NCBI GenBank assembly: GCA_030706405.1
Contig: JAUZOO010000002.1
Span: 191,167 to 255,166 of the forward strand
Direction: 5' to 3'
Length of the DNA: 64,000 nucleotides
Origin: Bacteroidota bacterium
Lineage (GTDB): Bacteria > Bacteroidota > Bacteroidia > Bacteroidales > JAAUTT01
The position numbers and the translations under genes are program-made. Positions 34,961-46,703 of this stretch are shown piece after piece (position 1 is the stretch's first letter; the number at the start of each line of letters is the position of its first letter). Under the pieces are notes generated by a model. The model was not told the DNA's origin, did not search any database, and saw nothing but the letters and a program-made list of their open reading frames with translations.

Positions 34961-35569
34961 TTAAGATCCAATAGTACCTGTCTTAACTTTTCCAGCTCGC
35001 TTGTAATTGGCAATAATAACTCCACTTGGTGTAACAATACTCTCTATTAATGTAAATGCTGCCGGAATCGCTCCATTGTCAAAAAGTTTTTTCCCCTTAC
35101 CTAAAGTCAAAGGGTGAATTTTGAGTCTGAGTTCGTCTACAAGGTCATTTTTAAGCAGCAGCTGAACGAGCTCACCGCTTCCCCAAACTTGGATGTCTGC
35201 GCCTTTTGAGTTTTTGAGTTTTTTGATATCTGCCAGATTTTTTATTACTACTGAATTTTCCCACCCGGCAACTATCGGGTCCGACTTTTTCATGCTTTTA
35301 GAAAACACGTATTTTGCGCCTTCATTAATACCCGGCCAAAGCTCTCCATGTTCGGGCCAGTAGTCGGCCCAAATCTCAAATGTTTTTCTGCCCAAGAGAT
35401 AATCTGCAGGTTTCAGCTCGTTTTGCACCACCTTATCATAAACTTCGTCAGAATACGGTGCCACCCAACCGCCATATTTGAAACCACCTGATGGATCTTC
35501 TTTAGGTCCACTGGGTGCCTGCATGACTCCATCCAATGTGATCATTGATAAAACAATTATTTTCCGCAT
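34961..35569 (-). CDS. Dihydrofolate reductase family protein (RibD C-terminal-like)
   Basis: The 202-residue protein begins MRKIIVLSMITLDGVMQAP and contains LLGRKTFEIWADYW, DIQVWGSGELVQLLL and DELRLKIHPLTLGKGKKLF. These are the NADPH-binding and fold landmarks of the YyaP/YwjB-type RibD C-terminal-like proteins. The physiological reaction is unknown. It is convergent with the AraC gene and has no operon partner. Confidence 0.9.
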   Translation of the reverse strand: MRKIIVLSMITLDGVMQAPSGPKEDPSGGFKYGGWVAPYSDEVYDKVVQNELKPADYLLGRKTFEIWADYWPEHGELWPGINEGAKYVFSKSMKKSDPIVAGWENSVVIKNLADIKKLKNSKGADIQVWGSGELVQLLLKNDLVDELRLKIHPLTLGKGKKLFDNGAIPAAFTLIESIVTPSGVIIANYKRAGKVKTGTIGS

Positions 35570-35746
35570 ATTATTTTACCTCCCCTTATAATGTATTCTT
35601 TAAAAGCTTCTTCAAAATCGCTTTTGTTACGATACAAATCTTACTACTAGCGCAGTCTAAATGCGACAATATTAGAGGCTGAATACATAAATTTCCGTCA
35701 GGATTCACTGACAGGCTAGTCTACTTAATTGTACGCCGTTTTTATT

Positions 35747-36310
35747 TCAATCAATAATAAATGGAGGACATATCCAAAAAAGAATATTTTCTCTCGAAAA
35801 TGCTCCATCAACATTTCCACCGTAGCTACAGTCTACTCTTTGAAAATAGAAATAATCATTAGCTTTATTGTTAACTACTAATTCGAAATTTCTTTTTTTA
35901 ATTATTTCACAAGTTACATCTTTCAGGATTTTTATTGTTAGATTTCTTTCTCCTAAACGAGTAGAATCAAAGATGCTTGTATGGTCAATCGTATCAAAAT
36001 TTGTCCATATTTTATTAAATGTAAGATCATTCCTTTTAGTTAAATATGAAATCGCAATCTTATACAATTTAACATAGTCATCAACAAGGGAATCCAAATC
36101 GGACTTTAAAATATTAATTAACTCATTTTTATTTACTTTCAAGATGTAATTCTTTTCAATAAATTTAATGAAAGGTCCATGAATCTTATTAATCCGTATA
36201 TAATCAATATTTTTTTCATGTTGTTTTAATGTATCACAAACTAAATAATTCTGTCCATATGATTCAATAATACAAACTAAAAATACGGTTAAAAGGAAGC
36301 AATTTTTCAT
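35747..36310 (-). CDS. Secreted protein of unknown function
   Basis: The 187-residue protein has a signal peptide (MKNCFLLTVFLVCIIESYGQ) and otherwise no domain I recognise. It is rich in Lys, Ile and Asn and has two C-terminal cysteines (VDCSYGG, WICPPF) that could form a disulfide. It is a single gene; a repeat C copy lies about 75 bases upstream of its start. Confidence 0.5.
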   Translation of the reverse strand: MKNCFLLTVFLVCIIESYGQNYLVCDTLKQHEKNIDYIRINKIHGPFIKFIEKNYILKVNKNELINILKSDLDSLVDDYVKLYKIAISYLTKRNDLTFNKIWTNFDTIDHTSIFDSTRLGERNLTIKILKDVTCEIIKKRNFELVVNNKANDYFYFQRVDCSYGGNVDGAFSRENILFWICPPFIID

Positions 36311-36384
36311 GATTCAATCTTTTTGTTTGAGATGTTTCTAAAATGGACTACAACGATTTCTACAATCGGAACTACGACGATTGA

Positions 36385-36441
36385 ATCAGCTTTAGTTATA
36401 GCTATATTGTTTTCCTGGTTCATTTTGTTTTGTAATTGCCC
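36385..36441. repeat. Dispersed repeat C, copy 1
   Basis: The first 30 bases (36385-36414, containing CTTTAGTTATAGCTATATTG) are identical to 45197-45226, and both copies continue with TTCATTTT and TTTTGTAATTGCCC. It lies between the genes at 35747 and 36458. Confidence 0.75.
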
Positions 36442-36457
36442 TTTTCTCATAAGCAGA

Positions 36458-36937
36458 TTATTCTGCCAACAATGTTCCTGTCTTAATCTCAATTCCTTTA
36501 TCTTTTAATATAGCAATTACTTTTTCAATATCTTCGTATACAAATCCAACAGCTGATTTTCTATCTTTTATATGCACAAGAAGCACATTTGGATTTTTCT
36601 TTTTATTGATTCCGGCTGGGAAATGATATTTATTGCGACCTGTTCCCCAGAAATTTCTGTTTTTATCAATGCTGTTATCCCATTTATGTACTCTTACAAA
36701 TTCAATGTCTGAAAGGTTAATATTATTCTTAAAATACAGTCCTACTAAAAATTGGATGAAAAGGAATCCTAGTGCAATCCCAATTAGCGTAGATACTGTA
36801 AATAAGATACCGCCTTTTTCGAATAGCAAAGAAGTTGTAAATGTTGAAGCGTAAATAATCAAGAAAAGGGAAAAAGTATTGTTTTTAAACTTGATTTGAT
36901 TGTTATCAATTTCGAAAGTACGGTCTTTGTAGATCAT
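36458..36937 (-). CDS. Membrane protein of unknown function, two transmembrane segments
   Basis: The 159-residue protein has two adjacent hydrophobic segments (FSLFLIIYASTFTTSLLF and LFTVSTLIGIALGFLFIQFL) in its first half. A soluble C-terminal half contains VLLVHIKDRKSAVGFVYED and DIEKVIAILKDKGIEI. The layout resembles small two-TM Bacteroidota proteins with a PH-like cytoplasmic domain; this is a guess. No partner gene is evident. Confidence 0.5.
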   Translation of the reverse strand: MIYKDRTFEIDNNQIKFKNNTFSLFLIIYASTFTTSLLFEKGGILFTVSTLIGIALGFLFIQFLVGLYFKNNINLSDIEFVRVHKWDNSIDKNRNFWGTGRNKYHFPAGINKKKNPNVLLVHIKDRKSAVGFVYEDIEKVIAILKDKGIEIKTGTLLAE

Positions 36938-37014
36938 ATTTTAAAATTTTATGGTTTTGGTTTCTTTTTATTTAATAACCTTTGCGCAGCTAAATTTAGT
37001 TTAGCAAAGAGGGA

Positions 37015-38637
37015 TTATTTTAGCAATCTGTTAATTTCATTTATTATTACGTGCTCAGAACTTGGTCTTGGAGCAGCATAGTTAACAACTTCTCCATCTT
37101 TACCTATCAGAATATAGGTTGGATAACCTTTAACACGAAAGTTTTGGCTCAATATGTTAAATTCATCTTCATTCAATAAATAATTTTCTCCTTCAATTTT
37201 TTCATCGGTTATTACTTTTTGCCATGTTGCCCTTTCGGATTTTACACAAAAATTTATGAAAACAATATTTTTATTTTTGAGCTCTGCATGTAATGTTTTT
37301 GCAAATGGAATTTCCTGTTTGCATGGTTCACACCATGTTGCCCAGAAGTCAACATAAATTATTTTCCCGAAATGTTTCTTAAAGTATTTTTCGGTAATCG
37401 ATTTTGAATATTCAGCTGTTTGGTTTTGGATTCTTGTTTCCTTTTCTGATACCATAACCTGTTTTCTATTGGGCGATATGCTCTTCAAATAATTGAGGAT
37501 AGACTTATTTGAAAAGAAGTCATTATATAAGTTCCATTCCTTATCTGTCGGAGAAAAATCCTTTTCAAAATAATAATGCGCTATTTGTTGAGCTAAGACA
37601 AAGTCTCTTCCTATACCTTTGGGTAACTCTGAACAATGGTTAAGTATTGATTTCATTACAAATCTGTTCCTTAACTCATATTCCTGTATTATTTTATCCT
37701 TATTGGAATTAAACTTTTTGAATTCGGCAGATTGAAATACAGTTGTATCACCATTATATACACCTGCAATAAGTCTCAGTTCTTCTTCTGAAAAAAGATT
37801 AAAGGATTTGTAGAAGTTGATTCTATCGGCTGTAGAAGATGTTTTTGTTTTATCCATTACCTCTCCAATATTTGCAATATAATCAATGTATTCCCGAACC
37901 ATGTAACCATTGTTTGAGTTTATTGGATATTCCGCAAATATTTTTGAGTAAAAATCTTTTGGTAATGAATCTCTAGGAACAGGTTGTTTACCTCTATAAT
38001 CATAACGGATGTTTATCCAAGCCTTCGCAGTTTCATACCGGATATTATTTTGTAAGATTTCAACAGTAGAACTCTTAAGTGGATGGTTTACCTGATAAGA
38101 CTTAAGAAATGACAATTTTTTCCGCTCAAGATCTTTTAGTATTTCCACATATTCTGCAATTGTATAATTTTGATTGTGAGCCGAACGTGCTTTTTCTATT
38201 TCTGATTCTAATTGATTATAAAGTGCTGTTTTAAACGAAGCAAGTTCATCGTTAATTGAATTTTCCGAATTGTTGAATTCTAACTTATCGTTTTTTATAA
38301 GAACATCGTATGATTTTAGAGGTTCCGTATAAATATCATACCTTTTCTTTTGGATGTTTAAGCTTACACAACCATATACTTCGTGAATCGCATCAAATTT
38401 AATTTGAAAAGACCCTGCACTATCAATTGCAAACACTTCGTCCTTAGGAGAGCGGGTAACTGCATCAAAGTACGTTAGTCTGCCCGTCTTAAAATCAGAA
38501 GTATAGTTTTCAATCCAGCCTTTTATATTAACAGGCTTTGCGATAAATTCCTTGAATGCTATTTTTTGAGAAGAAGCTTGAAAAGAAACACTAAATGAGA
38601 TTATTAAAAGTAAAAATATTCTTAATGATTTTATCAT
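37015..38637 (-). CDS. TlpA-type thiol-disulfide oxidoreductase
   Basis: The 540-residue protein starts with a signal peptide (MIKSLRIFLLLIISFSVSFQ) and has a long N-terminal region (about 370 residues) of the kind seen in Bacteroidota TlpA proteins. A C-terminal thioredoxin-like domain carries the redox motif WCEPC in WATWCEPCKQE and the cis-Pro segment KGYPTYILIG. It probably acts on periplasmic cysteines. The frame is open to 38679, but ATG at 38637 gives a normal signal peptide. A repeat C copy lies just upstream. Confidence 0.85.
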   Translation of the reverse strand: MIKSLRIFLLLIISFSVSFQASSQKIAFKEFIAKPVNIKGWIENYTSDFKTGRLTYFDAVTRSPKDEVFAIDSAGSFQIKFDAIHEVYGCVSLNIQKKRYDIYTEPLKSYDVLIKNDKLEFNNSENSINDELASFKTALYNQLESEIEKARSAHNQNYTIAEYVEILKDLERKKLSFLKSYQVNHPLKSSTVEILQNNIRYETAKAWINIRYDYRGKQPVPRDSLPKDFYSKIFAEYPINSNNGYMVREYIDYIANIGEVMDKTKTSSTADRINFYKSFNLFSEEELRLIAGVYNGDTTVFQSAEFKKFNSNKDKIIQEYELRNRFVMKSILNHCSELPKGIGRDFVLAQQIAHYYFEKDFSPTDKEWNLYNDFFSNKSILNYLKSISPNRKQVMVSEKETRIQNQTAEYSKSITEKYFKKHFGKIIYVDFWATWCEPCKQEIPFAKTLHAELKNKNIVFINFCVKSERATWQKVITDEKIEGENYLLNEDEFNILSQNFRVKGYPTYILIGKDGEVVNYAAPRPSSEHVIINEINRLLK

Positions 38638-38709
38638 AGTTCTATTATAATGGAATGTACATTCTTTTAATTTGGCCATAACATTTTATCAATCGCAACT
38701 ACTTACGAT

Positions 38710-38739
38710 TAAATCTGCTTTAGTTATCAGCTATTTCTG
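38710..38739. repeat. Dispersed repeat C, partial copy
   Basis: AAATCTGCTTTAGTTATCAG and the following CTATTTCTG resemble repeat C at 36385 and 45197. This copy covers the stop codon (38720-38722) and last codons of the upstream gene of unknown function. Confidence 0.5.
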
Positions 38740-39958
38740 TATTGGGGTTTGTAATGTACTTTAGCATTAATTCCGAATCGAACCCGTTGGCATGTTTTGT
38801 AACAAGAGGTTTCATTTTCTCATATAAATCTAATAAGCATTGACACCCTGATGTTTTAAATATGCGTTGCACCTCGTCGTTTTTATCTAAATCGGCAGTC
38901 ATAAAAGTGCTTAACTTGTCGATGGCTAAGTATTTTTTATCTAATTTTTTCAAACCTGTGTTTTTTTCGAGTAGCTGCCCTTCGGGTGTACCGTTATTAG
39001 TAATAAACAGAAATGTGCGCAGAAGAATTATACCGTCTATAATATCGGCACGAAAATATCCTGCTTTAGTACCAAAAAATATGTATTCGATTAACAGGTT
39101 ATTGTTATTATCGTAGGTGTATTTGGGTTTTGCTAGTGAACAAAACATGTTAAATTGAATTATACCCTGCCAAAAACAATCGATACGCTCTAATAAACGA
39201 TTGATTGCGTGCAATTGTATGTAAACTTTTAAAGGAATTTCGGAAAAAGGACCTTTAAATCCTAAAACAGAGGGTTTAATACTTACCCACTCGGCACCGG
39301 TATACGGTAAAGCCCAGCCAACACGAATAGCGGGACGAGAGATATCATCTACCCGCACGTTTATAGTTTCCGGAATTAACGAATAAGCATGTATAATGTT
39401 TTCGGTTTCGGCAGGAAGGGCTTTGGGTAGAACAATATCGTGTTTGAACCAATAAAGTGTTTTACGTAAATCGTTATAGCCAAAGTTGTATGAGTTCAAA
39501 ATATTGTACAATAGCGTTTTAGCCTCTCTGTTTTTAGAGGTGTAGCTTACAAATTGAGCCAATGCTGCTTTAACCTTATGAGCATTGTTAAATGATGTTT
39601 CGGAAATTCGAGCTTGTAAAATTATTATGGTGAATAGTACGGTGTAAAAGTCGTTTAACGATATTTCGAGGTTAACAGGCGGTAACGAAATGATTTCCTG
39701 TTTAATTAAGTTGGGCAGTATAACTTTGGTATCCTTTAATAATTTAGAAGGAATGTTGTTATTATAGGCTGCTATTATTTTAAAAGGTGCGCTTCGGCAC
39801 AGGTAAGCATCGTCTAAAACGCTTTGAGGTATTAAAGGGTAAATATTAGTACCGCATACACTGTCGATAATAAGTTTCATTTTACGGAAGAAATTGGCAC
39901 GGTACTGTGCTGCTAAATGTCTTTGGGCTTGCGTGTTGGGTTTTTTCTTTCGTTCCAT
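38720..39958 (-). CDS. Protein of unknown function, cytoplasmic
   Basis: The 412-residue protein has no signal peptide, no membrane segment and no motif I recognise. It begins with a basic stretch (MERKKKPNTQAQRHLAAQYR) and contains QLHAINRLLERIDCFWQ and GTKAGYFRADIIDG; predicted structure is mixed helix and strand. Its 3' end lies in a repeat C copy, and two other repeat C copies might be remnants of related 3' ends. It stands alone. Confidence 0.5.
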   Translation of the reverse strand: MERKKKPNTQAQRHLAAQYRANFFRKMKLIIDSVCGTNIYPLIPQSVLDDAYLCRSAPFKIIAAYNNNIPSKLLKDTKVILPNLIKQEIISLPPVNLEISLNDFYTVLFTIIILQARISETSFNNAHKVKAALAQFVSYTSKNREAKTLLYNILNSYNFGYNDLRKTLYWFKHDIVLPKALPAETENIIHAYSLIPETINVRVDDISRPAIRVGWALPYTGAEWVSIKPSVLGFKGPFSEIPLKVYIQLHAINRLLERIDCFWQGIIQFNMFCSLAKPKYTYDNNNNLLIEYIFFGTKAGYFRADIIDGIILLRTFLFITNNGTPEGQLLEKNTGLKKLDKKYLAIDKLSTFMTADLDKNDEVQRIFKTSGCQCLLDLYEKMKPLVTKHANGFDSELMLKYITNPNTEIADN

Positions 39959-40034
39959 TGCCTGTCAACTTTTGTTTTGTTAATTGAATAGATGAATGTT
40001 ATAAGAGTTTTCTTTAATATGCTTAACCTTTACT

Positions 40035-40155
40035 AGCGGCATTTAGTTTCGCTGAAACCCCTTCGTTAAGTTACAATGCCGCTTGTACATTTAAAAGTTT
40101 GTATTTTTAGTTATTCATAATACCTCCGGATTGCAAATTCAGCTTAGCGAGGAAC
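40035..40155. repeat. Dispersed intergenic repeat B, copy 1
   Basis: Two conserved blocks are shared with 43150-43287: an imperfect hairpin bounded by GCGGCATT and AATGCCGC (40035-40089), and a block with ATAATACCTCCGGATT followed by GCAAATTCAGCTTAGCG and GGAAC (40117-40155). It ends 6 bases past the stop of the transglutaminase-like gene. Confidence 0.75.
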
Positions 40156-40160
40156 CCGCT

Positions 40161-41423
40161 TTATTCAGGCTTTATCCAAAATTGTTTAGAGTCATTTGTA
40201 TAATAAATATGATTTTGAGGTTTGATATTTTCGGATTTATACTCAACGGAAGTTAAATGAATATAAGCCCTTTCGTTTTGATCTGATTTAGTTAACATTA
40301 ATGGCTCATTAGACTTGGAATCATGATTCTTACTATTTAACGATTCATATGCTGCACAACTATTTAAAGGGATCTCAAATTGAAATAAATTTTTTGCCAT
40401 ATAGTTGTGTAAATAATTATTACCATCATTAGGATTTCCATTCCAATTAATAGATGGTGATGCTTTAACAGGTAATCCACTGATTAAACGTTCCCTTACT
40501 TCCTCAATGCTTAGCAAGTTACCTTTTTCATCTTTTACCCATGTATCAAAAGTAGGATCCATCCAAATCCACTTGTTCAGCTTTTTTGAAAAAACACAAT
40601 TTATGACATGGCAATCCGGGTCATCTTTTTTCTTTGGCAAACAAGTTACAAAATGAGACTTAAATCCCATAGCTAAATATACCTCATTCAGTATAGTTGC
40701 CAGCATACGGCAATTAACACCTCTCTTTTCTTTTGCACACAGTTGTATAATAGCATCTGCATGTGTATCGGTTGGGTTCTGCGAATGACCATCATGTCTG
40801 ACAGTTTTATGAACCCACTCCATCAAATTTATCATCCTCGAAATTTCATCACCTTTTCCTGCGACTGAATCCAATTTATATTTTCTGCGAAGATTTTTAA
40901 GTTCTATATCGGCATTCGATTGGTATGTATATTTAGGCAAAACTATAGATTCATTATGGTAAGTTGGGTAACGTTTCAAAGTTTCTTCATAATCAACAAC
41001 TTTCTTAAGTTGCTTAATAATAGTAAGATATTTTTCATTACCACGAATATTATTCAAATCACTATCCTTGAGTGCCGAATAGTAATCGGAGTAACCACAA
41101 TCTACTGCTTTCTGCAAATACTTTATCGCTGAATCATTTTGCTTAAGCAATGAATATCCACAAGATAATTTGTAAAAAAAGAACGGGATATTCTCAGCGT
41201 ATTTAGCTTTTTGTGAGCCTTCTAAATCTAAAAAAGATGCATAAAAGTCATTCATAAGAGCAATAGCTTGCTTAAAATCCTTTTTTCCCCATAGCTTTTG
41301 TATTTCTATATTCTTTTGAGAAGCAATAGAATCAAATGCAGCTGCGCTTTGATTATTATTACTTTTTGACATCTTACAACTCGTACAAAAAAGTACAATT
41401 AATCCTAATATAATTATTTTCAC
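40161..41423 (-). CDS. Lipoprotein with transglutaminase-like domain
   Basis: The 420-residue protein has an SPII signal (MKIIILGLIVLFCTSC). A tetratricopeptide-like helical region follows (about 50-120, SGYSLLKQNDSAIKYLQKAVDCGY), then a transglutaminase-like domain with candidate Cys in GVNCRMLAT, His in CHVINCVF and Asp in WIWMDPTFD. Such domains in envelope lipoproteins are often proteases or peptidoglycan/peptide-acting enzymes; the substrate here is unknown. The frame is open to a TTG at 41447, but GTG at 41423 gives a proper signal peptide. Repeat B copy 1 lies just past its 3' end. Confidence 0.75.
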   Translation of the reverse strand: MKIIILGLIVLFCTSCKMSKSNNNQSAAAFDSIASQKNIEIQKLWGKKDFKQAIALMNDFYASFLDLEGSQKAKYAENIPFFFYKLSCGYSLLKQNDSAIKYLQKAVDCGYSDYYSALKDSDLNNIRGNEKYLTIIKQLKKVVDYEETLKRYPTYHNESIVLPKYTYQSNADIELKNLRRKYKLDSVAGKGDEISRMINLMEWVHKTVRHDGHSQNPTDTHADAIIQLCAKEKRGVNCRMLATILNEVYLAMGFKSHFVTCLPKKKDDPDCHVINCVFSKKLNKWIWMDPTFDTWVKDEKGNLLSIEEVRERLISGLPVKASPSINWNGNPNDGNNYLHNYMAKNLFQFEIPLNSCAAYESLNSKNHDSKSNEPLMLTKSDQNERAYIHLTSVEYKSENIKPQNHIYYTNDSKQFWIKPE

Positions 41424-41564
41424 ATGCAACTGTTTTAATATTACCAATGTTATTAATAGTCAAATTTTAATATTGCGAATATCTTGTAATTAATTTGTTT
41501 TTGTTTTGTAATCACAACCCAAGGGAGTAATTAACCGCTGTATACAAGAAGCACACGTACAGTA

Positions 41565-41605
41565 GTGAGAGGTACTCCGGTAGTCTTTAGGCTACCGGCC
41601 ATCTA
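41565..41605. repeat. Dispersed intergenic repeat A, copy 2
   Basis: Matches 32466-32506 at 40 of 41 positions, including the CCGGTAG/CTACCGG palindrome. It lies between the genes ending at 41630 and starting at 41423. Confidence 0.8.
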
Positions 41606-41629
41606 ATAATTCGATTGACGGTAGTAATT

Positions 41630-42592
41630 TTATCTCGTTTCTGGTTGCACTCCTAGCATTGAAAACAATCCATTATCTTTAAGAAACTTACTAAGGTTAT
41701 CCGGTTGTTTAAAGTCATTATTTTTTAAAAGGTCATAATAATCTGAAATTATTTTTGAAGACTTCCTTGCATCCTTTCGTTCTATTATTTTTTCATACAA
41801 CTTTTTCAATTCCGGCAATAATTTTTCATTGTCTAAATCAAAAGTCCTCGAATTATCCATTCCAGTTAGGAAGGTTGATAAGTAAGAAATATAATAGCTT
41901 TCCGATTCTCCATTCAAAAAGAAATCTGGATATTTGATATTAAAATCCTCCCATGTGGTAACACGGTCGTATAACTCTTCAAAACTTATCAATAATCCTG
42001 CATCTTCTGAATACCCCTGTTTCATTTCCTTGCTCCTAATCTTTAAGAAAACGTCCAATGCAGGTGAAACTTTACCTTTAAATAAATTATAAAAATAATC
42101 ATACTTTACATCAACATAATAAGTTCCTTCAGACATCAATAAGGTTAATCCGCAAACATCTAAGCATTTTTTAAAATCTTTTGTCTCCGAATCATTGATG
42201 TCCTTTTCAATCTTTTTTAAAACACCAGAATATTTTGTTTCAAGCGATTCTGTGAACGGATTTGCTGAATTATAAAACAAGTTAACAAATAAGATATACA
42301 CAGAATCCTTATTTGATTCATCTAAAGAACTTATGCACCGTTTAATAATATTTTCCGCAATTGGAATAGAAACAATGCCTAAATCCTTATAGCTAGATAT
42401 CTGTTTTCGAATGTTTTTAAAATCACAGCCTTGTTGATCTGGTTTGCTTTTACTTTCTTTGATTTTGTTCTGTATGTATTCATAATTCAATCCTTTGCCA
42501 GCCAAAGAATCCAAATTACCGACGGAACTTTTATTTGCACTCTTGCATGAAACAAGTACAAAAAGAAAAACTATATATTTTAACTTTTCCAA
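41630..42592 (-). CDS. Lipoprotein of unknown function
   Basis: The 320-residue protein has an SPII signal (LKYIVFLFVLVSC) and a largely helical, Lys/Ser-rich mature part without a domain I recognise. It has three internal cysteines. The preceding gene at 42647 ends 54 bases upstream on the same strand. Confidence 0.55.
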   Translation of the reverse strand: MEKLKYIVFLFVLVSCKSANKSSVGNLDSLAGKGLNYEYIQNKIKESKSKPDQQGCDFKNIRKQISSYKDLGIVSIPIAENIIKRCISSLDESNKDSVYILFVNLFYNSANPFTESLETKYSGVLKKIEKDINDSETKDFKKCLDVCGLTLLMSEGTYYVDVKYDYFYNLFKGKVSPALDVFLKIRSKEMKQGYSEDAGLLISFEELYDRVTTWEDFNIKYPDFFLNGESESYYISYLSTFLTGMDNSRTFDLDNEKLLPELKKLYEKIIERKDARKSSKIISDYYDLLKNNDFKQPDNLSKFLKDNGLFSMLGVQPETR

Positions 42593-42646
42593 TTTATCTA
42601 TATGTTTTTATATTTCTTTACAATAACTGTGTTGGTGGTTTGTTGT

Positions 42647-43045
42647 TTATTCAGTTTCAAGTATCTGCTTAATTTTTTTCAAGTCATTTTCTACCAATTT
42701 TGCATCTTGATTAAACTCTTCTTCTGTTCTATTCGGCATCCAAAACAATGTAAAAACTAATTCACTACCTTTTCCGTTTGCAATTACTCTTATAGGATTG
42801 TTTACCGTTGAACCGTCTGGAAGTGTAACCAAATGGTCTATAACTCCGAACTCATTTTTAGGAACAAATTCTATTTTGAGATTTCCCATATTTGTTTCAG
42901 CAAACCAAATCTCCTCAGTTTCTTTGTTCATAGAATTAATAAATTCCACCCACACAGGGAAGTTTTCGGGATTTGAAGCGAATTGATATACTTTGTCCGC
43001 AGGTTTATTTATTGAAACGCTGATATTCTTTACAGGATATGTCAT
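42647..43045 (-). CDS. SRPBCC family protein
   Basis: The 132-residue protein has the START/Bet v1-type opening (VSINKPADKVYQFASNPENFPVWVEF) and a C-terminal helix (NDLKKIKQILE). The ligand is unknown. Single gene in the accessory stretch, similar in style to the AHSA1-type gene at 24272 but not closely alike. Confidence 0.8.
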   Translation of the reverse strand: MTYPVKNISVSINKPADKVYQFASNPENFPVWVEFINSMNKETEEIWFAETNMGNLKIEFVPKNEFGVIDHLVTLPDGSTVNNPIRVIANGKGSELVFTLFWMPNRTEEEFNQDAKLVENDLKKIKQILETE

Positions 43046-43149
43046 ATCGGTTGTTTTTGTCTGTTTACTTGAATCACGGCAAGCAGTTTAAAATTAAAGC
43101 TATTATCACAAAAATTGATATAATTAAAATGTGAGAGGCGCCTTTGCTA

Positions 43150-43287
43150 AGCGGCATTTAGCTTCACTGAAATCACTTCGTTAAGTTGCAATGCCGCTTG
43201 TACAATTAAATTTGTAATCATAATACCTCCGGATTATAAATCCTTTAATGTTCCAAGCAGAATTGCAAATTCAGCTTAGCGGGGAAC
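43150..43287. repeat. Dispersed intergenic repeat B, copy 2
   Basis: Same blocks as 40035-40155: a hairpin bounded by GCGGCATT/AATGCCGC (43151-43198), ATAATACCTCCGGATT (43220-43235) and TTGCAAATTCAGCTTAGCG with GGAAC (43263-43287). This copy carries about 28 extra bases between the last two blocks. It includes the stop codon and last three codons of the VOC gene. Confidence 0.75.
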
Positions 43288-43704
43288 ATTAAACATCCAA
43301 CGAATTCCAAATCTGTCAAGGCAAACTCCCCAATAACCCCAAAACTCATCATGAGGTGCTACACATTCTGTTCCACCTTGAGATAGCGCGTTGTATATTC
43401 TGTCTGCTTCTTCTTTTGAGTCTGGCTCTAAACTAATAGTTGTGTTATTTCCGATTTTTAATTTGTGTCCCATACTTTCAAGCATGTCTGTTCCCATTAT
43501 GATTGTACCGCCTAAAATCGGTAGTGCAACATGCATCACCATTTTTTTCTCAGCGTCTGATAGCTGAGCCATTCCTTCTTGTTGTGGAATATCGCCCATT
43601 CGCATAATAGGAGCTGACCACTCTGTTTTGAAAACTGATTTGTAAAGGTTAAATGCTTCTTCTGCATTCCCCTGAAAATTTAAGTAGATGTTTGTTTTTG
43701 CCAT
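43276..43704 (-). CDS. VOC family protein, PhnB-like
   Basis: The 142-residue protein fits the PhnB/3-demethylubiquinone-methyltransferase-like VOC subgroup: YLNFQGNAEEAFNLYKSVF at the start, MHVALPILGGTIIMGTD in the middle, and FWGYWGVCLDRFGIRWMFN at the end. The enzymatic activity of the subgroup is mostly unknown. The last codons (N-V-P-R-stop) fall inside repeat B, so the repeat may have supplied the present C-terminus. Confidence 0.87.
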   Translation of the reverse strand: MAKTNIYLNFQGNAEEAFNLYKSVFKTEWSAPIMRMGDIPQQEGMAQLSDAEKKMVMHVALPILGGTIIMGTDMLESMGHKLKIGNNTTISLEPDSKEEADRIYNALSQGGTECVAPHDEFWGYWGVCLDRFGIRWMFNVPR

Positions 43705-43944
43705 GGTATTGATTTTTTTGTTATTATAATTGGTTTAAATGTAATTTTCTTTTGACAATGACCGTTAATGGCGACGGTATATTTTCGGGTGGCGTTAGGA
43801 ATCCAACTTCGTCAATTGCAATCTTTAATGAAGAACATCTTGGACATAGAGGTTATCAATCCATGCTATCATATTACCAGAAAGTTGCCCCACATTGTAA
43901 TACTGATGGGGCAGTCTACTCGATTAGTTGCATGTTTTTTATCC

Positions 43945-44244
43945 TTATAAAAACTTAGTCCAATGTTTAGGAATATTGTTTCCATATTTAATGATGCCAA
44001 GTTCAGATAATCTATATTCGATGTTAATTTTTGCTACATTAAAATAATCAGCTAATTCAGAAATAGTCAACAAAAAAGCACGTTGGTTATCATATTGATT
44101 GTCTATAAAAATTGTCCCTTTGTTTCTAATTCCATTTTTTTGCTGAATAGCTAATAAAGAATACCAAATAGTATTTTCTGGCATTAATAATGATGCCGAA
44201 AATTGATTTGCTTGCCACTCAACCCAATGTTTATCCGTTGTCAA
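43945..44244 (-). CDS. C-terminal part of an ImmA/IrrE-type metallopeptidase (split gene)
   Basis: The 99-residue ORF starts with TTG at 44244 and opens with HWVEWQANQFSASLLMP. This is the segment that in ImmA/IrrE proteins holds the third zinc ligand (Glu) about 35 residues after HExxH. The HEVGH itself is on the upstream ORF (44241-45116), which it overlaps by TTGA. The rest (TISELADYFNVAKINIEYRLSELG) is a small helical domain as in full-length family members. It is expressed either by translational coupling or frameshift, or is the broken end of a pseudogene. Confidence 0.75.
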   Translation of the reverse strand: MTTDKHWVEWQANQFSASLLMPENTIWYSLLAIQQKNGIRNKGTIFIDNQYDNQRAFLLTISELADYFNVAKINIEYRLSELGIIKYGNNIPKHWTKFL

Positions 44245-45116
44245 TTAAGAAAATTTATTTCAGGGTCATTGTAAATATGATTAGTCTGTTGATTAATTTT
44301 TAATGCATTGTGCAGTTTAAAATGTCCAACTTCATGAGCAAAAACAAATGGGAAACATGGTGTTTCTATGATAGTGTTGTTAATTGCAATTTCTTTGTTT
44401 TTAGGATTGAAATATCCGAAAATCTTATCTTTTTGTGGACTAATTTGATTATTGGTAACTGTTTTAATTTTATAATTATCAAAGATGAATTCTTCAATTA
44501 ATTTAACCGGAGTTGGTCTATAACAACTAATTATTTGATTATCGACTTCATTTAAGAAATTGGTTGTAATTTCCTCAATTTGTTTTTTGGACAAGAATGC
44601 TAATCCTTCAATTTTTCCCTCAAATATTTTAACAATCAAGTCTGTTATAAGAACGTTTATATCCTTGGATACTTGATTGTCAATATTAGTTCGGTGTAAA
44701 ATAAAGTTACAATCTTCGTTTTTTAATTGTATAAGTGTAATTCCTTTTGAGTTTGCAAAATTGAAAGCCCCTTCTTGAAAAACACTATCAGTAACAAAAA
44801 TTCCTTTACCATTCAAGTCTGCAACCTGATTGACTTTAGTATAAAACTCTTCTACATCATTAACTGGAACACTGTGATTATAACTTTTACATTCAATCAA
44901 TGTTAAGTAACTGTATTTAGATGCTCCTGGAAATTTGGTCTCAATTGAAATATCAAAGGTTATATCTTTCATTCTATCCTTTGAATAATAGGCTTTCTTG
45001 TGAAAGATTTCGCAACTTTCAGGAATAAAGCCTAATTCTCCTTTCGCTAATCTATCCTTAATTACCTCATATACTTTGACTTCAAATGTATCACCTTTTA
45101 AAACTGTATTCATCAA
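44241..45116 (-). CDS. Mrr-like nuclease domain fused to ImmA/IrrE metallopeptidase (N-terminal part of split gene)
   Basis: The 291-residue ORF has two domains. Residues 1-130 resemble a PD-(D/E)xK restriction-endonuclease fold of the Mrr type, with Asp55 in DITFDISIE and Glu75-x-Lys77 in LIECKSYN. The C-terminal part is an ImmA/IrrE-type zinc peptidase with His261/Glu262/His265 in FAHEVGHFKLHN. The ORF stops 26 residues after that motif, before the third zinc ligand, which is found at the start of the next ORF. ImmA/IrrE peptidases usually cleave a repressor to release a stress or mobile-element response; the nuclease domain suggests a DNA-targeting role. A defence role is inference. Confidence 0.75.
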   Translation of the reverse strand: MMNTVLKGDTFEVKVYEVIKDRLAKGELGFIPESCEIFHKKAYYSKDRMKDITFDISIETKFPGASKYSYLTLIECKSYNHSVPVNDVEEFYTKVNQVADLNGKGIFVTDSVFQEGAFNFANSKGITLIQLKNEDCNFILHRTNIDNQVSKDINVLITDLIVKIFEGKIEGLAFLSKKQIEEITTNFLNEVDNQIISCYRPTPVKLIEEFIFDNYKIKTVTNNQISPQKDKIFGYFNPKNKEIAINNTIIETPCFPFVFAHEVGHFKLHNALKINQQTNHIYNDPEINFLN

Positions 45117-45196
45117 TCATTTAAAATTATTTCTAATTGTGCGCGGATTTGAAAATTGCAACTAACATTTCAATACTCGCAACCGGTTGCGAGTAT

Positions 45197-45264
45197 ATCA
45201 GCTTTAGTTATAGCTATATTGTTTTCTAGATTCATTTTACTTTGTTCTCGTTTTGTAATTGCCC
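45197..45264. repeat. Dispersed repeat C, copy 2
   Basis: The first 30 bases are identical to 36385-36414. It is followed on its left side by a perfect 24-base palindrome made of ATACTCGCAACC and its complement (45172-45195). It lies upstream of the nuclease-peptidase gene. Confidence 0.75.
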
Positions 45265-45361
45265 CAACATCTAAAAATTCCACCTCTTGCAATCATCCGC
45301 GAAACAGCTATTTGCATAAACCGATAGCCATTTACTTTAAGCGTTAAATGTAAAAATTTCC

Positions 45362-45418
45362 GGTTAAACAAGATGGATGTTGTTTAACTTTATTTAGAAT
45401 ATTTGTATGTTGTTTAAC
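45362..45418. promoter_or_regulatory. Cluster of three TTGTTTAAC boxes
   Basis: GTTAAACAA (45363-45371, reverse orientation), TTGTTTAAC (45380-45388) and TTGTTTAAC (45410-45418) lie within 56 bases. The last is within the palindrome ATGTTGTTTAACAT. They sit between the divergent nuclease-peptidase gene and the 21-bp repeat array and look like operator sites; no regulator is known. Confidence 0.4.
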
Positions 45419-45489
45419 ATTACCAATAACCCGGTTTGGTTTGTACGTAAAACAAAAGCCCCAATAGGCGAGGCATTTAATGGTAGCGT

Positions 45490-45750
45490 TTGGCTAATTT
45501 AATTTTTACATCGGTTGTTTTGTCATCCAAAATTTTTCCTACCGGAAGTTTTATTTCAGATACCGCGAGAAATTTTTCAGATACCGCGAAAAATTTTTCA
45601 ATGACCGCGAGCTTTATTTCAATGACCGCGCAAAATTTTTCAATGACCGCGAGAAACTTTTCAGTTACCGCGAATTTTATTTCAATGACCGCGAGAAAAA
45701 AAAGGTACTTGAAAAAATATTCGCGGGATACAAAATTTTGCAGGCCATGA
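45490..45750 (+). CDS. Possible heptapeptide-repeat micro-protein (doubtful)
   Basis: An open frame from a TTG at 45490 runs through all seven 21-bp repeats, giving 86 residues with seven heptads of the form (N/F)-(F/I)-S-(M/D/V)-T-A-x, and a basic tail. The variation between units changes amino acids rather than silent positions, which argues against protein-level constraint, and there is no clear promoter or good start codon. It is listed because the array keeps the frame without a stop. Confidence 0.25.
   Translation: MANLIFTSVVLSSKIFPTGSFISDTARNFSDTAKNFSMTASFISMTAQNFSMTARNFSVTANFISMTARKKRYLKKYSRDTKFCRP
45555..45701 (+). repeat. Seven tandem 21-bp repeats
   Basis: Seven head-to-tail units of exactly 21 bases start at 45555, 45576, 45597, 45618, 45639, 45660 and 45681. 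All share TTCA-(3 bases)-ACCGCG; the three bases are GAT, ATG or GTT, and the last seven vary. There are no spacers. In one plus-strand frame each unit reads as a heptapeptide such as NFSMTAR, since 21 is a multiple of 3. Confidence 0.95.
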
Positions 45751-46079
45751 GTTGCTAAAATGTTATTTGTGCGCTGATAACCAATTTAATAGCCGTTAAT
45801 AAAGCCTTTAGTCCTTACAAAAGGTCTCTTTATTTGCTGTCCGGTTATTCGTGCTCAAGCTATCTGGGCCATCAATATGGCTTTTTGTGCCATCTGTTAT
45901 GTTGCTTATAAAACATTTTCAAAATTACTGAGTACAAACTATTATGCCACAACACACTGCTCAAAAGCTGTAACAACGCGGTTTTTCAGAATTGTTACAC
46001 ACAAATTTGGAGATATAAATTATAAGTCATATATTGACAACACGTTACCTTTTGGGGATAAACCTTAAAAATTAGATGT
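45702..46079. other. Intergenic region upstream of the 46080 gene
   Basis: Nothing but a short AT-rich stretch of no recognisable gene is seen here. It holds no exact TAnnTTTG promoter box close to the next start; TACCTTTTG near 46046 is one base off in spacing. Confidence 0.4.
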
Positions 46080-46703
46080 ATGTATAATAAAAGTGTTATT
46101 ACAGATTACAGTCGCTTATCGGATAAGGAAGTAGAAACTCTTGCGTTTCTCATTTATAATTCGTTAAAGGACAATCCTAATTTTAATTGGGGCAATAACG
46201 AGATTGCCCAGTTACTAACGCTGTCAACTAACTACCGTACAGCGTTTGAAAAAGCCCTTACCGGCACCTCGCAGGATGTTACGGCCAAAAACATTGCCCG
46301 TAAAGCCCTCACCGATTTTATCCGGATATTGGGCAAAGATGTAAACCTGCAGGCCAATGGCGATTTGCTTAAATTGCAGTCGAGTGGTTTTGAGTTAAGT
46401 AAGGATCGCTCTAAATTGGGCGTTTTGCCAAAACCCAGCGGGCTCAAAGTAACCGCCGGAGATAACCCCGGAGAAATAATTGCCACTACCGATGCCTTTA
46501 CCCAGGCCACAGTGTATTTGTTTTTTGTGGCTGTGGTGCCTACACCGGCTTCTATTAAGGACTGGCAGGTAGAAATGTCCACCTCGCACAAAAAGAAAAT
46601 CAGCGGCCTTACCTCGGGCAAGCAGTTAGAGGTAAAATGTGCTTATAAAGGCACTTCGGATGAACTGATCTATAGTGATTCGGTTTTCATTTATGTTCAA
46701 TAA
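46080..46703 (+). CDS. Protein of unknown function with fibronectin-III-like C-terminal part
   Basis: The 207-residue protein has no signal peptide. Its N-terminal half is helical (DYSRLSDKEVETLAFLIYNS, then NYRTAFEKAL). After a linker with LPKPSGLKVTAGDNPGEI, the second half has the beta-strand pattern of a fibronectin type III-like domain (MSTSHKKKISGLTSGKQLEVK). Its composition is visibly richer in G+C than the genes to its left. It follows the 21-bp repeat array; whether the two are linked is unknown. Confidence 0.55.
   Translation: MYNKSVITDYSRLSDKEVETLAFLIYNSLKDNPNFNWGNNEIAQLLTLSTNYRTAFEKALTGTSQDVTAKNIARKALTDFIRILGKDVNLQANGDLLKLQSSGFELSKDRSKLGVLPKPSGLKVTAGDNPGEIIATTDAFTQATVYLFFVAVVPTPASIKDWQVEMSTSHKKKISGLTSGKQLEVKCAYKGTSDELIYSDSVFIYVQ

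Follow-up and report, generated by a model that had tools for sequence, protein, structure and literature searches.

A window of 64,000 nucleotides from the genome of a Bacteroidota bacterium (assembly GCA_030706405.1, contig JAUZOO010000002.1, positions 191,167 to 255,166) contains two overlapping open reading frames (ORFs) on the minus strand which together resemble one nuclease-peptidase gene. ORF1 (45113..44241, minus strand, 290 amino acids (aa), ATG start) encodes a nuclease domain, a linker and the first half of an IrrE/M78 peptidase including the HEVGH motif. ORF2 (44244..43945, minus strand, 99 aa, TTG start) encodes the second M78 half followed by C-terminal HTH-like helices, and opens with LTTDKHWVEWQANQFSASLLMP; the motif with the third zinc ligand, EWQAN, is found on this frame. 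The stop codon of ORF1 (TGA) and the putative start codon of ORF2 (TTG) overlap in the tetranucleotide TTGA (44241..44244, minus strand). The nuclease motifs of ORF1 are FDISIE (Asp54, Glu58) and LIECK (Glu74-x-Lys76). An original prediction made from the letters of the DNA had described the two ORFs, their TTGA overlap, the nuclease-like domain, HEVGH and the segment with the third zinc ligand, and all of these were found again when the sequence was re-read. However, that prediction placed the start at 45116 and thereby included an upstream TTG, so that its residue numbers (Asp55, Glu75-x-Lys77, His261-His265) are one too high. The split into two ORFs is a real feature of the sequence, and it is more than a chance neighbourhood, because ORF1 and ORF2 represent contiguous halves of one conserved domain. 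Upstream of the gene just one weak Bacteroidetes-like promoter match was seen, and neither the Rfam scan nor the tRNA scan gave a match in the window.

The domain assignment is based on profile matches, conserved residues and the predicted fold of a relative, which together bear out the proposal of an Mrr-like nuclease joined to an ImmA/IrrE peptidase and divided through its zinc site. In the Pfam search, Mrr_cat (PF04471) matches residues 49-130 of ORF1 (E 4e-8, 33.7 bits versus a cut-off of 21) and is also matched by all 13 relatives compared. Peptidase_M78 (PF06114) is spread over both ORFs with 18.4 bits (profile positions 11-68) and 18.6 bits (74-123), each half alone being just below the cut-off of 22 bits, whereas an intact relative reaches 54.9 bits. 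Across 13 aligned full-length relatives, the nuclease residues D54, E74 and K76, which the window also has, do not vary, and neither do H270, E271, H274 and E313 of the zinc site (Hymenobacter numbering). In the structure predicted for the intact Hymenobacter protein (mean pLDDT 81), the N-terminal domain has a PD-(D/E)xK fold like that of AF1548, Can2/Card1 and further nucleases of the restriction type (residues 6-137 versus AF1548, Z 13.5; residues 2-141 versus Can2, Z 11.6). The C-terminal part of the model is folded like CapP and IrrE/PprI (residues 182-403 versus CapP, Z 13.3; residues 180-401 versus IrrE, Z 11.9). Both parts are connected by a linker at about residues 143-172, where model confidence is low.

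Relatives were detected in Hymenobacter fodinae (403 aa, L002 5001-6212), on a plasmid of Spirosoma oryzicola (437 aa, with an ImmA/IrrE annotation), in Acinetobacter records (431 aa) and in a Bacteroidia metagenome-assembled genome (MAG, L003). Another 13 genomes with a relative came from samples of the class, the order and the phylum, which comprised about 395 genomes each with some genomes common to several samples. As the relatives are few and dispersed, the gene is rare and scattered; it was not found in the four other genomes of the same genus, and no viral relative was present among the viral contigs searched. The family consists of single-chain proteins of about 400-450 aa with an Mrr-type PD-(D/E)xK nuclease, a flexible linker, an IrrE/CapP-like zinc peptidase and an HTH-like end. 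In 15 of the 17 M78-bearing relatives that were read the nuclease is fused to the M78 part, counting one that runs off its contig (L038) and one with a frameshift inside the nuclease part (G562), and two stand alone (L003 and L035). The MAG (L003 4198-5603) carries a stand-alone nuclease of 204 aa and a stand-alone M78 peptidase as divergent neighbours, and the stand-alone M78 relative of L035 (8046-8765) is next to genes of a type I restriction system and to a large gene for a helicase. Descriptions of nuclease-M78 fusions were not found in the open-access literature searched. An annotated counterpart is the protein of S. oryzicola (WP_232563759.1, an ImmA/IrrE metallo-endopeptidase with an N-terminal restriction-endonuclease domain), which has the same architecture and is matched in tblastn over 99% of ORF1 with 34.5% identity. 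However, it is encoded by one ORF of 437 aa, whereas the copy of the window is broken in the peptidase.

The peptidase is unbroken in every M78-bearing relative that was read. In 17/17 relatives HExxH and the ExQAN motif with the downstream glutamate ligand lie in one frame and thus in one polypeptide, whereas in the window they are distributed over two frames. The nearest relative, from a genome of the same order (G562), shows aa identities of 63% in the nuclease, 66% in ORF2 and 43% in the segment made up of the linker and the first M78 half. Its peptidase is whole and aligns straight across the join, and a net gap of 13 nt occurs in the window only, at 44250..44251 (minus strand; the exact placement is ambiguous by a few bases). 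The deletion site is part of the loop that connects the HExxH helix to the helix of the third ligand, and the join corresponds to a loop of the Hymenobacter model with pLDDT below 50 (residues 298-301). The G562 homologue itself (L018 1488-2680) carries a frameshift of its own, located in the nuclease part where eight A follow one another; this shift is either real or an error of the draft assembly.

Taken together, these data argue, with a probability of roughly 0.75, for one gene broken by a small frameshifting deletion, that is an interrupted and probably recently decayed member of a rare family of nuclease-IrrE/CapP-like fusions. The original prediction had named a recent single frameshift mutation as one of its two readings, and the single frame of the relatives together with the net loss of 13 nt in the window alone speak for it. 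The deletion would shift the frame in such a way that the first product contains an intact nuclease domain and half a peptidase, while ORF2 would remain as an orphan, expressed solely via re-initiation at the TTG. Most likely the protease is no longer active and the gene is in decay. In comparison to G562, dN is 0.26 for ORF2 and 0.29 for the nuclease, and this similar constraint is as expected if the break is young; as dS (1.8) is saturated, the constraint on ORF2 stems mostly from the period preceding the break and gives no date for it.

Several observations weigh against this interpretation. Since the affected site is a loop, a protein divided there could still come together, and ORF2 has no other lesion and keeps its conserved residues. 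A loop that is by nature four residues shorter would leave a difference of only 1 nt. The gene is missing from the other genomes of the genus, so that they offer no close strain by which to date the change; an empty-site comparison by flank synteny was uninformative, since the flanks are rearranged in the relatives. Furthermore, the way in which the intact family works is something that we infer.

The possibility of a naturally shorter loop leads to the view that the real gene is intact and that the split is an error of sequencing or assembly, for which a single wrong base would then suffice. The integrase gene of the same genome is also split, and the frameshift of the G562 copy in its run of eight A is of a kind that fits this view. 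However, the long genes elsewhere in the window are uninterrupted (by inspection only) and the assembly comprises 21 contigs with a completeness of 99.7%; an error is considered unlikely.

If the break is genuine, the truncated ORF1 might have been kept for its nuclease alone, as a type IV-like restriction enzyme for which the protease is dispensable. The nuclease motif of ORF1 is indeed intact, and the stand-alone nuclease of the Bacteroidia MAG provides a precedent of 204 aa. Yet this very MAG retains a stand-alone M78 gene beside its nuclease, and a function of this kind is regarded as highly improbable.

The other reading of the original prediction was a two-subunit or programmed-frameshift protein. 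In its explicit form, translation would stop at the TGA and re-initiate at the TTG, and the 99-aa chain would dock on ORF1 and complete the zinc site, so that protease activity depends on coupled translation. The TTGA overlap permits re-initiation, the cut lies in a disordered loop, the ligands and conserved residues to either side of the cut are all retained, and nuclease and M78 parts do exist as separate genes in L003. However, none of the 17 relatives is split within the zinc site, and the separation in L003 is at the domain boundary. In addition, TTG is a weak start codon, and the overlap is weak evidence for coupling: when deletions of length 1 mod 3 were simulated before every codon of 12 relatives (4592 cases), an NTGA start/stop overlap arose in 14%, and in 44% some start codon was present no more than 30 nt from the stop. 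A programmed −1 frameshift at A AAT TTT was also considered and ruled out, because in the frame of ORF2 a TAA just precedes the TTG and a −1 shift upstream cannot join both ORFs. Coupling of ORF1 and ORF2 is therefore possible but unsupported; homologues that are fused, with the split copy unique, tell against it. A working two-chain enzyme thus has a very small chance of being correct, and the same slight chance applies to its fuller version, a split zinc protease carried as an integron cassette in Bacteroidota and completed only when the coupled, re-initiated 99-aa chain docks on the nuclease-peptidase chain.

The integron setting is a more unusual part of the locus than the split gene. An integron attI-like site precedes the start of the gene by 45 nt, and its core is the perfect 24-bp palindrome ATACTCGCAACCGGTTGCGAGTAT (45173..45196). 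A cassette-type R′ junction, GTTAGTTGC (45158..45166, minus strand), adjoins the site, and an R″-like remnant, TGCAACTAAT (43923..43932, minus strand), complementary to R′ in 9/10 positions, is located just 3′ of ORF2; shuffling of the spacer 3′ of ORF2 produced an equally good match to the 9-base core in 3.8% of cases. The palindrome is at one end of an approximately 570-bp leader (45148..45719) which recurs in the genome at C15 with 93% identity, and the stretch 45264-45754 recurs at C20 with 82% identity. Inside the leader a 21-bp minisatellite, TTTCAATGACCGCGAGAAATT, is repeated about seven times (45529-45698), with a related stretch at C12:449354. The palindrome was also considered as an operator; this idea was dropped in favour of an attI-like site, as copies adjoin the integrase and head attC arrays.

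The attI-like site of the window is common to the sites heading the arrays C19, C9 and C15. At C19 a copy of the palindrome site (77%) directly follows an integron-type tyrosine integrase, and attC sites of about 146 bp come after it. This integrase is split into two ORFs by a frameshift which divides its SAM-like domain; it has a long N-terminal extension and scores under the curated cut-off of the integron-integrase model. A covariance model built from nine of the C19 attC sites detected some 45 attC-like sites genome-wide (E down to 3e-27), with runs beginning just past the leaders of C19, C9, C15 and C20. Complementarity of R′ to the R″ of its own attC is a hallmark of an integron cassette, and for the first cassettes it amounts to 10/10 at C19, 9/10 at C9 and 10/10 at C15. 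The integron loci are L067 (8823-10446 and 10634-19901, G000:C19) as well as L068, L065 and L066. It is thus well supported that the genome holds a chromosomal Bacteroidota integron with several attI-attC arrays; complete integrons are very rare in Bacteroidota according to IntegronFinder 2.0 (PMC9024848).

The window shares with a chromosomal integron cassette the attI-like site, the R′ junction and the R″-like remnant, and canonical attC arrays exist elsewhere in the genome. A junction of the attI type is present at the 5′ end of the gene, but a complete attC at the 3′ end is missing: none was found in 35000-46500, and the best value of the covariance model (R1) in the window was E 0.1. Since R′ and an R″-like remnant are present and no attC follows, the gene is, judged from these sites, probably a former first-position cassette that no longer has its attC.

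The gene belongs to a block from 35.7 to 45.2 kb with a GC content of 28-36%, in comparison to 40-48% beyond 46.5 kb, in which all main genes are on the minus strand. The earlier description as an accessory region holds up. Further partial attI-like copies are located in the block at 36366-36433 and 38679-38734. A second repeat pair (40035-40155 / 43150-43287, about 80-96% identity by segment) lies between genes of the block and contains the inverted sequences AGCGGCATT/AATGCCGCT; it is possibly a recombination site or a MITE-like element.

Among known systems, CapP, the regulator of the anti-phage system CBASS, and PprI/IrrE, the DNA-damage protease of Deinococcus, have the M78 fold and the zinc motif in common with the family. 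The M78 part matches capP of PADLOC (E 2.8e-17) and PDB entry 7t5t (E 4e-11). However, no CapH- or DdrO-like repressor family is conserved beside the nuclease-M78 gene: across 19 loci no neighbour family is shared, so that the conserved partner protein looked for was not found, and neither an XRE repressor nor a CBASS operon was recognised near the gene of the window. Mrr_cat restriction endonucleases and the CARF nucleases Can2/Card1 share the PD-(D/E)xK fold with Asp54 and Glu74-x-Lys76, but the family is joined to an IrrE-like peptidase and no CARF or SRA domain was recognised. The suggestion of an uncommon defence system may or may not be correct: the M78 part resembles CapP and PprI, but a conserved partner gene is lacking, and the consistent PADLOC matches (2023 library) concern the M78 part only, to M78 parts of other systems (capP, RmrA and PDC-M69B). 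The family may have a role in DNA cutting, restriction or defence.

Single-stranded DNA (ssDNA) activates the PprI and CapP proteases, which cut a repressor (PMC10904395). From the domains, the residues, the folds and the lack of a conserved partner, we infer a trigger, a target and an effect on phage for the intact family. Like PprI and CapP, its M78 module may cut a target in response to damaged or invading DNA (ssDNA), and this cut would set free or license the nuclease. As the relatives have no conserved repressor gene next to them, the target would most likely be the linker of the protein itself or else a distant repressor. Such a solo device, an ssDNA-responsive protease that licenses its nuclease by cutting its own linker or a distant repressor, is put forward tentatively, as a possibility with somewhat less than even chances. 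The unusual split is best understood as damage in one member of a rare but coherent family of single-chain proteins and not as a new two-part enzyme; if the proposed mechanism is correct, this family would represent a self-contained sensor of damage or invasion with its own nuclease.
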